Assembly: GCA_015061495.1 (NCBI GenBank)
Contig: SUWL01000014.1
Location: 1 to 44,102 of the forward strand
Reading direction: 5' to 3'
DNA from: Lentisphaerota bacterium
GTDB lineage: Bacteria > Verrucomicrobiota > Lentisphaeria > Victivallales > Victivallaceae
DNA: 44,102 nucleotides
Within the stretch, counting starts at the first letter, position 1. Each line of letters starts with the position of its first letter. Below, in pieces: positions 31,901 through 39,179 of this stretch. The notes below the pieces were generated by a model that made no database searches, was not told where the DNA came from, and was given only the letters and a program-made list of their open reading frames with translations. The position numbers and the translations under genes were made by a program.

Positions 31901-32020
31901 AAAAAAAAGAAACGCCGTGAAACAGATGACTCATGGCCTGTCAGAAATCGCGTAGGGCTGCTTGGTTCCCCACCTGACCCGGTTGGCGTTTCAGACAACA
32001 CACGAGGTCCGTCTCACGGC
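31901..32020 (-). ncRNA. ffs: Signal recognition particle RNA (4.5S type)
   Basis: RNA from about 32020 to 31914, plus a T-run (31901-31908). Domain IV is intact: GTCAGG-TGG-GGAA-CCA-AGCAGC, with the GGAA tetraloop and the symmetric internal loop that binds the Ffh M domain. The ends close with a 10-bp helix (GCCGTGAGAC against GTTTCACGGC, one G-U). GTTTC and eight T follow, so the closing helix doubles as terminator. Length is about 107 nt, the short bacterial form without an Alu domain. It lies between accD and rph, and its promoter is inside the end of accD. Confidence 0.93.
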
Positions 32021-34839: not shown

Positions 34840-35817
34840 TTAAAAAAGTTCGTCCTGGATCTCAATGACCGCTTTTTTCTCCTCAACCACCGGCTTCTGT
34901 GCGGCGGCAAAAGAGAACAGATCATCTTCAAAATCGCCATGTTCCGGCTCGGCAGGCAGTTCCGGCAACTCCTTGAGAATGCTGTTGAATTGATTATCCC
35001 GGCAGATATCTGCGATCAGATGCCAATCCGGCTCATCACGCAGAGGAGGTACTCCGGTTGCCATTTCCGCGGGCAATCCGGTACGCAATCTGATCAGCTC
35101 CCGGTTGCGGCGGACAGTTTCCAATTCCGGCAGCAGCTTCTTGCCAAGTTTGTGCGCCGGGTCGATCAGAGCGGGGTCATCAAGCCACTTTTCGGCAGCG
35201 CCAAACGTTTTCAAAATCTCTACCGCACTTTTCGCCCCAACTCCGGGAACACCGGGAATATTATCTGATGAATCGCCCAACAATGCCAGATAATCCACCA
35301 TTTCTGCCGGAGTGACACCGAATTTCTCAACAACTTCAGCCACCCCCCGCCGTTCAAATCCGCCGCTGGCAGGGATCAGCATCGTCACCCGCTGATCGAT
35401 CAACTGGGAAAGATCCTTATCACTGCTGACGATCTCTACCGTCTTATCCGGATACTGCGCAGCAAATCCGCCGATCAGATCGTCGGCTTCATAATCGGGA
35501 CATTGCAGCTGTTTCCAGCCGAATGCACCGGCGATTTTACGGATCAGCGGGATCTGCTGTTTCAACGGGTCCGGCATCGGCGGACGATTGGCTTTATACT
35601 CCGGATTGAGTTCCATGCGGAATGCAACTTTGCCGCAATCAAAAAGCATGGCACCATATTTGGATGGATGGTTCTTTTCCAGCTGCAGCAGCAGTTTGGT
35701 GAATACATACGCCGCATTCACCGGCTCATTCCGGGAGTTGGTCAACATCCTGATGGCATAAAAGGAACGAAAAATCTGGCTGTACGCATCAACCAGAACC
35801 AGTGAATCCGGCTTCAT
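34840..35817 (-). CDS. Stand-alone 5'-3' exonuclease (PolA N-terminal domain type)
   Basis: 325 residues of the FEN/5'-nuclease family. Acidic metal-binding motifs are CPDYEADDLIGG and IVSSDKDLSQL, and the helix-hairpin-helix is GDSSDNIPGVPGVGAKSA. It matches the first domain of DNA polymerase I without the polymerase part, so it probably removes RNA primers and flaps. The extreme C-terminus IQDELF fits the beta-clamp-binding QxxLF pattern. A perfect palindrome sits in its leader, and its promoter is at 35912-35940. Confidence 0.9.
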   Translation of the reverse strand: MKPDSLVLVDAYSQIFRSFYAIRMLTNSRNEPVNAAYVFTKLLLQLEKNHPSKYGAMLFDCGKVAFRMELNPEYKANRPPMPDPLKQQIPLIRKIAGAFGWKQLQCPDYEADDLIGGFAAQYPDKTVEIVSSDKDLSQLIDQRVTMLIPASGGFERRGVAEVVEKFGVTPAEMVDYLALLGDSSDNIPGVPGVGAKSAVEILKTFGAAEKWLDDPALIDPAHKLGKKLLPELETVRRNRELIRLRTGLPAEMATGVPPLRDEPDWHLIADICRDNQFNSILKELPELPAEPEHGDFEDDLFSFAAAQKPVVEEKKAVIEIQDELF

Positions 35818-35887
35818 AATTCTGTCTTTCTCTCAAAAAAAATAGGTAATGTCCCAAATTTCAAAAAATTCACATCCGAAATCAGTC

Positions 35888-35906
35888 GTTTGCGATAATC
35901 GCAAAC
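35888..35906. promoter_or_regulatory. Perfect palindrome at the exonuclease start point
   Basis: GTTTGCGA-TAA-TCGCAAAC, 8-bp arms without mismatch, beginning at the predicted +1. It could be a repressor site or a stabilising 5' hairpin. Confidence 0.6.
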
Positions 35907-35911
35907 TCACG

Positions 35912-35940
35912 AATATATCACAACCATTATGATTTGTCAA
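35912..35940 (-). promoter_or_regulatory. Exonuclease promoter
   Basis: Minus strand TTGACA (35935-35940), 17 bp, TATATT (35912-35917). The 370-bp gap 35818-36187 holds this promoter, the palindrome at 35888 and the small RNA candidate; about 36000-36030 shows nothing I can interpret. Confidence 0.82.
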
Positions 35941-36034
35941 TCACGCAATAACGGTTTGATCCTGTCGGCTTGTCACAGCACAGTGAAACGAAGACGAATG
36001 GATGCATCGCATCACAACAAATGATACAATAAAT

Positions 36035-36132
36035 AAAAAAAGTTCAAGACTGGTGATCCACAATACATCCGCGAGGAGTAATTATGAAGAGGAGAATTTG
36101 CATACAGACGCATTGCTTCCCCGGTCTTGAAC
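36035..36132 (-). ncRNA. Candidate small RNA (novel)
   Basis: About 98 nt on the minus strand. The first 12 bases (GTTCAAGACCGG, 36121-36132) pair with the last 12 before the T-run (CCAGTCTTGAAC, 36042-36053) with one mismatched position, and seven T follow (36035-36041), as in a terminator. A promoter (TTGAAA, 17 bp, TATAGT, 36140-36168) would start transcription exactly at the helix. Inside, two CTCCTC motifs (complementary to 36073-36078 and 36089-36094) lie in what looks like a large unpaired loop and could pair with Shine-Dalgarno sequences. Short pairs GCAAT/ATTGT and GCG/CGC could extend the stem. It does not match any RNA family I know. Confidence 0.55.
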
Positions 36133-36139
36133 CCTCCAT

Positions 36140-36168
36140 ACTATAGTGCTACTTTCGTTTTTTTTCAA
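36140..36168 (-). promoter_or_regulatory. Promoter of the small RNA candidate
   Basis: Minus strand TTGAAA (36163-36168), 17 bp, TATAGT (36140-36145), 20 bp downstream of the GNAT stop. Confidence 0.65.
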
Positions 36169-36187: not shown

Positions 36188-36601
36188 TCACATTTTTCTA
36201 TGCTGCCATAACAAATAACCGGATTTTTGCTCCCAATTCAGCTTCCGGTAGAACTCTTCAGTGCCGGGTTCTCCAACCAGTCCGATCCAATCTATCCCGT
36301 GTTTTTCCAGATTTGCCACCAGCAGGGTGATCAAGCCGCGCCCGATCCCCCTGCCCCGGTATGCCGGATCAACGACGACATCCTGAATATACGCATCCGA
36401 ACAGCCATCGGAAAGCACCCGGGCACTACCGACGATCACACCGTCAGCAAACGCCCCCGCCGCCAGAAAAGACCCTTTGAATGCCGGACGGAGAAACGCA
36501 GTATTTTCGCCGGGAGCCACCCAGTTGGCAGAAAGATAAAATCCGGCGATACGCTCAAGCGTATCACCGGAAATATCATCCAGCAAACGATACTCAATCA
36601 T
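36188..36601 (-). CDS. GNAT-family N-acetyltransferase
   Basis: 137 residues, one GNAT domain. The acetyl-CoA pyrophosphate loop is VVDPAYRGRGIGRGL at about 76-90, and EPGTEEFYRKLNW is the usual motif B end. The start shares one base with the argC stop (TGATG), so it is translated from the argC message. A role in arginine synthesis, such as making N-acetylglutamate, is suggested by position only; the sequence looks like a general GNAT. Confidence 0.85.
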   Translation of the reverse strand: MIEYRLLDDISGDTLERIAGFYLSANWVAPGENTAFLRPAFKGSFLAAGAFADGVIVGSARVLSDGCSDAYIQDVVVDPAYRGRGIGRGLITLLVANLEKHGIDWIGLVGEPGTEEFYRKLNWEQKSGYLLWQHRKM

Positions 36602-37629
36602 CAGAGCAACCCGGTTGCTTCATCAATGCCGAACCGGATATTCATACACTGAACAGCCTGCCCTGCGGCACCTTTGGTCAAATTGTCGATACAACTGGTC
36701 ACGATCACTTTGTTGGTATGTTCATCAAAGAAATAACCGATTTCGCAGCAATTGGTCATAAAGACATACTTGGTATCAGCACACCGTTTGGCTGGCAGCA
36801 CCCGGACAAACTGCTCATTGCCGTAAGCGGCATTGAGAACTTCGCCGACCTTTTCCAGAGTACACCCCGGCATGGCATTCATCAGGATCGTTGAGTTGAT
36901 CCCCCGGTTCATCGGAGCGAGGTGAGGGATAAAGTTGATTTTCACCTCTTCCACACCGGCGGCGAATGCCATTTCCTGCTCGATTTCCGGCAAATGACGA
37001 TGCCCGACCGGAGCATACGCTTTAATACTCTCGTTGCATTCCGGGAAAATATACGGCAAATCGACTTTACGTCCGGCACCGGTGCATCCGGAACAACTGG
37101 CAACGACGATGCCTTCAGGAGAGACGATCCCGGCTTTAAGAAGCGGTGCCGTCGGCAGAATACTGCTGGTCGGATAGCATCCGGCACAAGCAACCAGATC
37201 GGCTTTTTTCAACTCTTCACGATAGAGTTCCGGCTGGCCGTAAACCGCCTGTTTGAGCAGCTCCGGAGCGGGATGGTCGGCTTTGTAATACTCTTTGTAT
37301 TTGGCAGTGCTTTTCAAACGGAAGTCTGCAGAAATATCAAATACTTTCACGCCCTTTTCCAACAGCGGGATGGCAAATTCCGTTGCCAGACCGTGGGGGA
37401 GCGCCAATATCGCCGCATCAAAATCGCAATTTTTCATCGCTTCATCCGGAGCGATAAAATTCAGCGGCAAACCGGTAAAACGCGGAAATACCGTTGAAAC
37501 CGGTTCCCCGGCATTTTTTCTGGAAGTGATCGCGGCGATTTCCGCCTGATTATGACGCAACAGCAAACGAAGCAGCTCTTCTCCGGCATAACCGGATGCA
37601 CCGAAAACTGCCACACGGATCTTACTCAT
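36601..37629 (-). CDS. argC: N-acetyl-gamma-glutamyl-phosphate reductase
   Basis: 342 residues. It reduces N-acetylglutamyl phosphate with NADPH in arginine synthesis. The NADP loop is GASGYAGEELLRLL at about 10-23, the nucleophile is Cys151 in ACAGCYPTSS, and the catalytic His lies in VGHRHLPEIEQEM. No other arg genes are nearby. It lies 26 bp after the DUF1846 gene and overlaps the GNAT gene, so the three are one operon. Confidence 0.96.
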   Translation of the reverse strand: MSKIRVAVFGASGYAGEELLRLLLRHNQAEIAAITSRKNAGEPVSTVFPRFTGLPLNFIAPDEAMKNCDFDAAILALPHGLATEFAIPLLEKGVKVFDISADFRLKSTAKYKEYYKADHPAPELLKQAVYGQPELYREELKKADLVACAGCYPTSSILPTAPLLKAGIVSPEGIVVASCSGCTGAGRKVDLPYIFPECNESIKAYAPVGHRHLPEIEQEMAFAAGVEEVKINFIPHLAPMNRGINSTILMNAMPGCTLEKVGEVLNAAYGNEQFVRVLPAKRCADTKYVFMTNCCEIGYFFDEHTNKVIVTSCIDNLTKGAAGQAVQCMNIRFGIDEATGLL

Positions 37630-37655: not shown

Positions 37656-39179
37656 TTATTGTTCCATAAAAAGATTGCGGCTGGTAAATACCGGTTCACA
37701 AGTCAGATGCACCCCAAGTTTTCTCAATCCGGTCTCATCTCCGGCAGGAGGAATGTGGCTGATGTGCATTTCGCATCCCCGGAGTTTCTCCAACTGCGCC
37801 AGAGCGAGTGCCGCTGCCGGATTGGACGGGGTGGACACACTCAACGCCGTAAGCGTTTCGACCAGTGCCAGAGAAATCTGCTTATCCGCAAATATTTCAT
37901 GTTTCAAATTACCGACCGATTCAATGACCTGCCGGGAAAGCAAATGCAGATCTGACGGCAGACCGGCAAGATGTTTGATCGCATTGATGATACAACTGGA
38001 TGCAGCATGAAGCAGCGGAGTGTTTTTACCGGTGATAATCGTACCGTCAGGCAGTTCCAATGCCGCTCCGCAAAAGATATTGTCATGGCCGTATTTGAGC
38101 GGATTGCGCTTGGCGGCGGATGCCGCTTTACGGGCAGGTTCGACCACATTGCGCTCCAATTCGCCAATGCCCTGTTCATCCATCAGCAATTTGATCCGTT
38201 CCGGCACGCATGATTCCACTTCTCCCTCTGCGTAGTCCCGCAAAGCTCGGAAGTAACGCCGGATCAATTCCTGTCTGGCGGCGTACTGAACCGCCTTGTC
38301 ATTGGTTATGGCAAAACCGATGCGGTTGACCCCCATATCAGTGGGTGACACGTAGAGCTGCTCCGGTTCCATGATCCGGGCGCAAATCCGTTTTACTACC
38401 GGAAAGATCTCAATATCCCGGTTGTAGTTGACCGCAGTTTCTCCACGGGCCTCAAGATGGAACGAGTCTACCATATTGATATCTCCCAAATCCGCCGTTG
38501 CCGCTTCGTACGCGACATTGACCGGATGCTTCAATGGCAGATTCCAGACCGGAAAAGTTTCAAACTTGGCGTAACCGGCTTTCACCCCGCGCTGATAATC
38601 GTGGTACACCTGCGAAAGACACGTACCCATTTTGCCGGAATTCGGTCCGGGCCCGGTGATGACCACGATAGGACGGTCGGTTTCAATATACTCATTGGCT
38701 CCGAATCCTTTATCACTGACGATGGTTTCCACATCCGTCGGATATCCTTTGATCGGGCGGTGGGTGTAAACTTTGATCCCACGGCGGGAAAGACGGTTGA
38801 TAAAGCCTTTTACCGCCGGCTGATCCCGGTAACGGGTGACCACGACCGCTTTGACATCCAATCCCCAATCCCGCAGATCATCAATCGTCCGCATGGTGTC
38901 GGCATCATAGGAAAGACCGAAGTCGGCACGCATTTTTTTCTCCTCAATCGCACCGGCGTAGATGCAGATGACGATGTCAACCTTATCTTTAAGCCGCTGA
39001 AGGAGTTTGATTTTGGCATCCGGATCAAATCCGGGCAGCACCCGTGCCGCATGGTAATCGCAGATCAGTTTGCCGCCGAATTCCAGATAGAGCTTGTCCC
39101 CGAACTTACCGGCACGCTCCAAAATGGCGGCGGATTGTTCAGCCAGATATTTTTCACTGTCAAAGCCGTTTTTCAACAT
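37656..39179 (-). CDS. DUF1846 (UPF0371) family protein
   Basis: 507 residues, the usual length of UPF0371 proteins. The start GFDSEKYLAEQSAAILERA, then KLYLEFGGKLICDYHAARVL and VVITGPGPNSGKMGTCLSQ match the family. The last segment has a P-loop-like glycine-rich turn. Soluble, no signal peptide. The function is unknown; a nucleotide-dependent enzyme is plausible. It is the first gene of the operon with argC and GNAT, from a promoter whose spacer is a palindrome. Confidence 0.9.
   Translation of the reverse strand: MLKNGFDSEKYLAEQSAAILERAGKFGDKLYLEFGGKLICDYHAARVLPGFDPDAKIKLLQRLKDKVDIVICIYAGAIEEKKMRADFGLSYDADTMRTIDDLRDWGLDVKAVVVTRYRDQPAVKGFINRLSRRGIKVYTHRPIKGYPTDVETIVSDKGFGANEYIETDRPIVVITGPGPNSGKMGTCLSQVYHDYQRGVKAGYAKFETFPVWNLPLKHPVNVAYEAATADLGDINMVDSFHLEARGETAVNYNRDIEIFPVVKRICARIMEPEQLYVSPTDMGVNRIGFAITNDKAVQYAARQELIRRYFRALRDYAEGEVESCVPERIKLLMDEQGIGELERNVVEPARKAASAAKRNPLKYGHDNIFCGAALELPDGTIITGKNTPLLHAASSCIINAIKHLAGLPSDLHLLSRQVIESVGNLKHEIFADKQISLALVETLTALSVSTPSNPAAALALAQLEKLRGCEMHISHIPPAGDETGLRKLGVHLTCEPVFTSRNLFMEQ

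Follow-up and report, generated by a model that had tools for sequence, protein, structure and literature searches.

A hairpin RNA gene of 98 nucleotides was confirmed, by sequence comparison, as a real and family-conserved element of the Victivallaceae, bacteria of the gut and of environmental habitats. It lies on the minus strand (36132-36035) of the window, i.e. the whole stretch of 44,102 nucleotides of Lentisphaerota DNA analysed here (Table 1). Its product is probably a trans-acting, Hfq-independent small RNA (sRNA) that would cover ribosome-binding sites of the GAGGAG type and repress the genes behind them. A sigma-70-type promoter belonging to the gene itself would start transcription, and the RNA would end at its own hairpin and U-run. 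The entire molecule would thus be a single hairpin of the terminator type, with two CUCCUC modules displayed in its 31-nt apical loop. These could pair with GAGGAG-type Shine-Dalgarno (SD) sequences of target mRNAs (or with AGGAG via CUCCU), and the full loop could pair with the SD sequence and the start codon together. Such pairing would keep the ribosome off the target mRNA, and it would do so without Hfq. As modelled, the build is unusual, with a doubled seed carried in the giant loop of a terminator-like hairpin.

An earlier note on this DNA had proposed a novel sRNA on the grounds of a promoter with an exact 17-bp spacing, a 12-base terminal inverted repeat, seven T directly after its second arm and CTCCTC occurring twice, 16 bases apart. 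These features were all recovered at their places, the CTCCTC spacing holding when counted from start to start and the two arms of the repeat (GTTCAAGACCGG and CCAGTCTTGAAC) departing from full complementarity by one C-A mismatch. The description of the interior as having little pairing had to be revised, since an inner helix of 13 bp extends the stem and the open part is only the 31-base loop that holds both CTCCTC motifs. Absent from the earlier note were this inner helix, the near-constancy of the loop, the synteny with an exonuclease gene and a possible complementary partner RNA (see below).

The promoter boxes displayed 10 of 12 matches to the consensus (sigma-70-like), and the helix starts after a gap of seven bases from the -10 element, which is the expected start of transcription. 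Taken alone, this promoter is weak evidence, because two promoter-like sites occurred in a region of 601 bases where shuffles led to expect 1.2; it is the recurrence in homologues that counts. The fold of the 98 nucleotides was predicted at -31.3 kcal/mol, a value that none of 200 dinucleotide shuffles equalled (z -4.5), and ensemble mean pairing probabilities in the source genome were 0.22 and 0.25 for the two CTCCTC motifs. The hairpin was not listed by a terminator scan, one restricted to loops of 3-8 bases.

Table 1. Features of the sRNA locus, its surroundings in the window and the partner copies of the source genome.
Feature	Position	Strand	Evidence or remark
-35 element TTGAAA of the putative sRNA promoter	36163..36168	-	similar boxes 5' of homologues
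-10 element TATAGT of the putative sRNA promoter	36140..36145	-	17 bases after the -35 element
sRNA gene, predicted transcript (hairpin and U-run)	36035..36132	-	fold, covariance model, covariation
Outer helix, 5' arm GTTCAAGACCGG	36121..36132	-	repeat, fold, covariation
Inner 13-bp helix, 5' arm	36104..36116	-	fold
31-base apical loop with near-constant TTCTCCTCTTCATAATTACTCCTC	36073..36103	-	fold, alignment
First CTCCTC (anti-SD motif), within TTCTCCTCTTCA	36089..36094	-	alignment
Second CTCCTC (anti-SD motif)	36073..36078	-	alignment
Inner helix, 3' arm	36060..36072	-	fold
Outer helix, 3' arm CCAGTCTTGAAC	36042..36053	-	repeat, fold, covariation
Seven T	36035..36041	-	whole hairpin would double as terminator
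Dispersed repeat of ~190 bp with own promoter TTGACA-17-TATATT	35845..36032	-	not part of the sRNA
Stand-alone PolA-type 5'-3' exonuclease gene	34840..35817	-	PF02739, PF01367; usual downstream neighbour
Small bacterial SRP RNA gene	31917-32014	-	
GNAT acetyltransferase gene	36188-36601		
Semialdehyde-dehydrogenase-family (argC-like) gene	36601-37629		
DUF1846 protein gene	37656-39179	-	beyond the argC-like and GNAT genes
Partner copies, source genome (G000), contig C2	38784-38829, 45285-45334	-	L287, L288, L327

A DNA search of the 34 genomes of the genus gave some match in 32 of them, the sRNA element being mixed there with the dispersed repeat lying downstream of it. A covariance model (R1) was built from 17 aligned homologues of 17 genomes, an alignment in which RNAalifold recorded double changes in 16 of the 20 predicted pairs. 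With R1 at E <= 0.1, matches occurred in 24 of the 34 genus genomes, one in each (G006 displaying a second, weak one), and in 50 of the 78 Victivallaceae genomes, representing 12 of the 19 genera; the fraction was 29/36 among high-quality genomes. At E <= 0.01, 49 of the 137 genomes of the order matched, all of them Victivallaceae. A second model (R2), built from the 53 copies of the 50 R1-positive genomes, matched 50 of the 197 genomes of the class, again all Victivallaceae, and no sRNA was found in the 119 other class genomes (under stricter filters, the best 20 candidates being scored per genome). A pattern scan of named genomes yielded 93 loci, on all of which R1 was run. The sRNA is held by 44 of them, titled Lentisphaerota, Lentisphaerae, Lentisphaeria, Victivallales, Victivallaceae or Victivallis. 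Three weak matches elsewhere (L145, L088 and L138) were without the long hairpin, two of them resembling complements of gene starts, and were rejected; the remaining 46 loci had no R1 match at E <= 0.1.

Among the carriers are the gut commensal Victivallis vadensis DSM 14823 (L156) and, with a complete genome, Lentisphaerota strain zth2 (L086), where a tmRNA gene (L070, 125-478, minus strand) lies about 1.2 kb from the sRNA. Two copies each were recorded in G048 (L077), G036 (L079/L083) and G035 (L081/L084), and in the last two genomes one of the two copies lacked one exact CTCCTC. Divergence was greatest in L055 (26.9 bits with R1), which kept locus, promoter and hairpin and has one exact CTCCTC. 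The sRNA was not detected in 28 of the 78 family genomes, 19 of which have the exonuclease gene, and it is thus dispensable on an evolutionary scale. As to the ten genus genomes without sRNA, the exonuclease gene is present in three and absent from the assembly in seven, so that the locus may simply be missing from these seven assemblies. The short loop pattern also occurred in 39 viral-contig stretches (L383-L421), mostly with the same 26-base span. Their R2 scores were at chance level (best E 0.13) and they were not retained; they may come from a conserved viral gene, and no relative of the exonuclease was found in the viral contigs searched for it.

Paired changes in the closing helix, for which the earlier note had suggested a covariance search in relatives, were present. 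Covariation in the 53-copy alignment was 0.618 versus 0.242 after shuffling, none of 500 shuffles reaching the observed value, and slid partners gave at most 0.144. Pairing cells amounted to 85.5% (63.9% shuffled) and double-changed cells to 246 (86.9 shuffled), counts that lean towards the model, to which the alignment had been fitted; inspection of the raw sequences by eye gave the same picture. Changes on both sides were recorded for 20 of 20 pairs, a measure that adds little since shuffles averaged 17.4 and 10 of 500 reached 20. Relatives keeping neither the helix nor the T-run had been named beforehand as what would speak against the RNA. Yet both were kept: the closing helix, with compensatory changes, in 53 copies from 50 family genomes, and the T-rich end in 52 of the 53, with at least five T in a stretch of 8 bases close to the 3' end.

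The loop is far more constant. TTCTCCTCTTCA was exact in 50 of the 53 copies, two exact CTCCTC occurred in 49, the whole loop 24-mer was identical in 34, and in 39 the minimum-energy fold left both CUCCUC entirely open. The linker between the motifs measures 2-7 bases and reads TAATTA in 35 copies; in four genomes (L014, L017, L018 and L019) it has an extra A (TAAATTA), which increases the motif spacing by one. A drifting helix combined with a near-fixed loop is as expected of a displayed pairing seed. Upstream, a promoter-like site with at least 9 of 12 matches was found within about 50 bases in 40 of 52 copies, at varying offset, against a background of 142 in 3000 random 60-mers of the source genome. 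As to the features that define trans-acting anti-SD sRNAs, a promoter and a terminator of its own were thus recognised at the sequence level, and an exposed, conserved anti-SD seed by predicted fold and alignment.

The source organism does use SD sequences, since, among 198 sampled starts taken as the first ATG of a long ORF, 55 had GGAG in the SD zone versus 4 in the control zone. Full GAGGAG was rare (3 of 198, versus 1 in the control zone), which would leave room for selectivity in the choice of targets. Hfq was found in none of the 78 family genomes versus 5 of 14 control genomes, and with no Hfq detectable, a seed that is displayed by a loop and needs no chaperone fits. No recurring mRNA target with extended complement was found family-wide among the matches listed (22-mer, 14-mer and first-motif pattern). 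Matches to the loop complement at gene starts were mostly scattered, and the 40 match places examined (one of them, L323, read on the wrong strand) contained only four pairs of related proteins. Two further observations count against the simplest form of the proposal: the conserved TAATTA linker (35/53) is not explained by SD pairing of the two CUCCUC alone, and in the 35 of 53 copies that have an exonuclease match beginning within 70 nt downstream on the same strand, the RNA may have a cis role.

This gene, coding for a stand-alone exonuclease, was matched 2-245 nt downstream on the same strand in 39 of the 53 copies. Being so close, it must be read through the hairpin or driven from elsewhere, and the arrangement could suggest a cis-acting leader or attenuator in which the hairpin would terminate most transcripts, and exonuclease expression would be set either by read-through or by the loop pairing with the SD sequence of that gene itself. 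Such a leader is unlikely in view of several observations. First, 12 of the 53 copies are not followed by the exonuclease in the available sequence (three of them have short downstream sequence, 166 nt in one and about 600 nt in two), and in L040 and L049 another gene intervenes, the exonuclease being 1.4 kb away. The long ORFs closest to the sRNA of L068 and L072, as mechanically delimited, are on the opposite strand at either side. Second, the exonuclease stands without the sRNA in 18 loci examined from genomes where the sRNA was not detected (L440 and L441 being left out), no version of it being found there. CTCCTC without hairpin was recorded upstream of the gene once in L422 and twice in L435, the best unfiltered R2 match having an E of 1.4. 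Third, in the source genome the promoter-bearing dispersed repeat separates sRNA and exonuclease gene. A role as exonuclease leader only is ruled out by the copies elsewhere, the inserted genes and this repeat; the sRNA gene is linked to, yet separable from, the exonuclease gene.

The dispersed repeat itself looks like a scattered or mobile promoter, judging from its sequence. Its TTGACA-type promoter is conserved; in the window copy the palindrome GTTTGCGATTATCGCAAAC comes right after the promoter, and in several copies the repeat stops immediately ahead of a start codon. A query containing the repeat gave 26 matches in the source genome (self included) and 28-35 in some relatives, and the repeat alignment comprised 13 other copies of the source genome and 3 of G011.

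Together with its linker, the loop varies less than SD pairing alone would call for, and this uniformity could point to the binding of a protein, either an RNA-binding regulator or a component of the 30S subunit attracted by mimicry of the 16S anti-SD tail. CUCCUC resembles the 16S 3' end CCUCCU, and the RNA would in that case be a decoy for a protein or the ribosome. We regard this as more doubtful still than the leader, since sX13 of Xanthomonas, with its C-rich loops, is reported to act on mRNAs with G-rich motifs near their starts (PMC3771888). As for coding on the plus strand, the loop complement does read as a textbook ribosome-binding site and start codon (GAGGAG-TAATT-ATG, then a short peptide MKRR...), yet this is barely conceivable and is contradicted by a reading frame that is not conserved (peptides of 7 to more than 20 residues with differing C-termini, one ATG with an immediate stop (G005, L036), no such start in 10 of the 53 copies by the rule applied) and by covariation and promoter belonging to the minus strand.

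A trans-acting sRNA is thus the reading that we prefer, and comparison with known RNAs placed it outside the families searched. Across the window, the Rfam 15 scan picked up a tRNA and the small SRP RNA above the gathering cut-offs and nothing more. Around the locus there were three sub-threshold matches (E <= 5), the best being a microRNA model with 19 bits versus a cut-off of 64, and seven homologous loci gave only the tmRNA situated elsewhere in L070. The earlier suggestion of a novel sRNA is therefore strengthened, the element having no Rfam 15 match and being conserved with compensatory helix changes. In Firmicutes, RsaE/RoxS, LhrC and the csRNAs pair with SD sequences through unstructured CU-rich motifs; their architecture and taxa are unrelated to those of the Victivallaceae sRNA.

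Closer likenesses were found in two other systems. Cyanobacterial Yfr1 displays the ultraconserved unpaired ACUCCUCACAC, which contains ACUCCUC, between two stem-loops, the unpaired stretch measuring 16-20 nt (PMC2190773). It occurs mostly at one locus, and its counterpart Yfr2 is multicopy, with unconserved loci and a nearly complementary motif (PMC6778093). The Victivallaceae sRNA shares with Yfr1 the ACUCCUC sequence, a usual locus and a possible complementary partner, which mostly lies elsewhere in the genome. In contrast to Yfr1, it is a single hairpin with two CUCCUC in its apical loop, the second of which runs into the inner helix and not into ACAC, so that ACUCCUCACAC was not recovered as such. 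Yfr1 further belongs to a different phylum, and the Victivallaceae sRNA has no Rfam match.

sX13 is reported to be an Hfq-independent RNA with C-rich apical loops encoded next to polA, as are Spot 42 and alpha-r7 (PMC3771888). The C-rich apical loop, the proposed Hfq independence and the restriction to one family recall sX13. The usual neighbour of our sRNA is a gene for a PolA-type 5'-3' exonuclease, which may or may not be a split-off part of polA. sX13 differs by its three stem-loops (CCCC in loops 1 and 2) from the one hairpin with CUCCUC found here. Moreover, sX13 lies downstream of polA and our sRNA upstream of a stand-alone exonuclease gene, this comparison being one by Rfam scan and description only. 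The sRNA thus resembles Yfr1 and sX13 by its anatomy and lacks defining features of both, and we therefore class it as a new family of RNA whose functional kind is a known one. It is new as far as the searched libraries go, and the mechanism proposed from its sequence can be called likely. A Lentisphaerae motif, Acido-Lenti-1 (RF01687), figures in Table 1 of PMC2864571, and no Rfam match to it was obtained here. The available part of a gut metatranscriptome study that names Lentisphaerae and small RNAs draws no link between the two (PMC3050895), and no trans-acting sRNA described for Lentisphaerae or Victivallis was found in the top-ranked literature on their RNAs.

A search for the loop complement uncovered a second element, composed of a 5' segment, GAGGAGTAATTATGAAG, and a strong GC hairpin of varying sequence directly after it. 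Over 14-20 nt, the 5' end of this element is complementary to the sRNA loop, with 0-2 mismatches. Twelve partners were accepted in 10 of the 34 genus genomes: two each in G000 (the source genome) and G025, and one each in G006, G011, G012, G014, G019, G021, G028 and, doubtfully, G033. A model of six of these elements with shortened loops (R3) gave an E of 1.8e-13 on the own-genome copy that is part of the model. Outside the model, values were 4.5e-8 (G028), 3.3e-7 (G021), 3.8e-7 (G014), 2.6e-6 (G006), 5e-4 (G011) and 0.0016 (G033), matches below that of G006 mixing with chance. Weak matches in G073, G059 and G074, in the range of G011, were not accepted. The partner of G028 was found by R3 and was not among the matches of the 14-mer search; that of G014 was among them. 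Promoter-like boxes in the 60 bases upstream reached at least 9 of 12 in seven of the 12 partners, 8 in one and 5-7 in four. Neither a U-run after the hairpin nor a conserved peptide was found in the partner elements, which displayed no Rfam family match.

The two copies of the source genome are 6.5 kb apart and flank two large related genes. In G012, G019 and G028 the partner stands beside the same gene, which we take to be mraY, and on the same contig as the sRNA, 15-17 kb from it; in G014 about 1.4 kb separates partner (L343, C9:37810) and sRNA (L046, C9:36341).

Nine elements from eight genomes were compared with their own sRNA, the element of G021 and both of G025 being left out because no sRNA was found there, perhaps due to a locus absent from the assembly. 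The duplex with the loop was predicted at -24.9 kcal/mol for one copy of the source genome and -23.2 for the second. The own sRNA was the best or tied-best partner in 7 of the 9 comparisons, 6 of the 8 loops being identical (permutation test, 0.054). Matching changes were seen in two genomes: in G006 the element has A to G where the loop has T to C, and in G028 the pair of changes is A to T with T to A. Other cases speak against such matching. G019 and G033 have the same A to G change in the element with an unchanged loop, which leaves a G-U pair, and mismatches between partner and loop numbered two in G011 and one each in G028 and G033.

From this, we tentatively put forward, as a possibility with clearly less than even chances, that the sRNA and this element form a pair of complementary RNAs. 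GAGGAGUAAUUAUGAAG and the GC hairpin would then make up a decoy, imitating a ribosome-binding site and titrating the sRNA, in a circuit similar to Yfr1/Yfr2 and of independent origin, in Lentisphaerota without detectable Hfq. Apart from being a decoy RNA, the partner element could equally be a target or have some other nature.

The element would represent a family-wide sRNA in a phylum for which no described trans-acting sRNA was found in the top-ranked literature, and in organisms without detectable Hfq. One and the same molecule would be both a terminator and the carrier of a doubled anti-SD seed. It also touches a question left open in the sX13 report, namely whether the polA loci of other bacteria encode sRNAs with C-rich loops (PMC3771888). 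Since the type species Victivallis vadensis carries a copy, the sRNA is testable in culture, and, given the possible decoy, a two-RNA circuit could be probed with simple binding assays and reporters.
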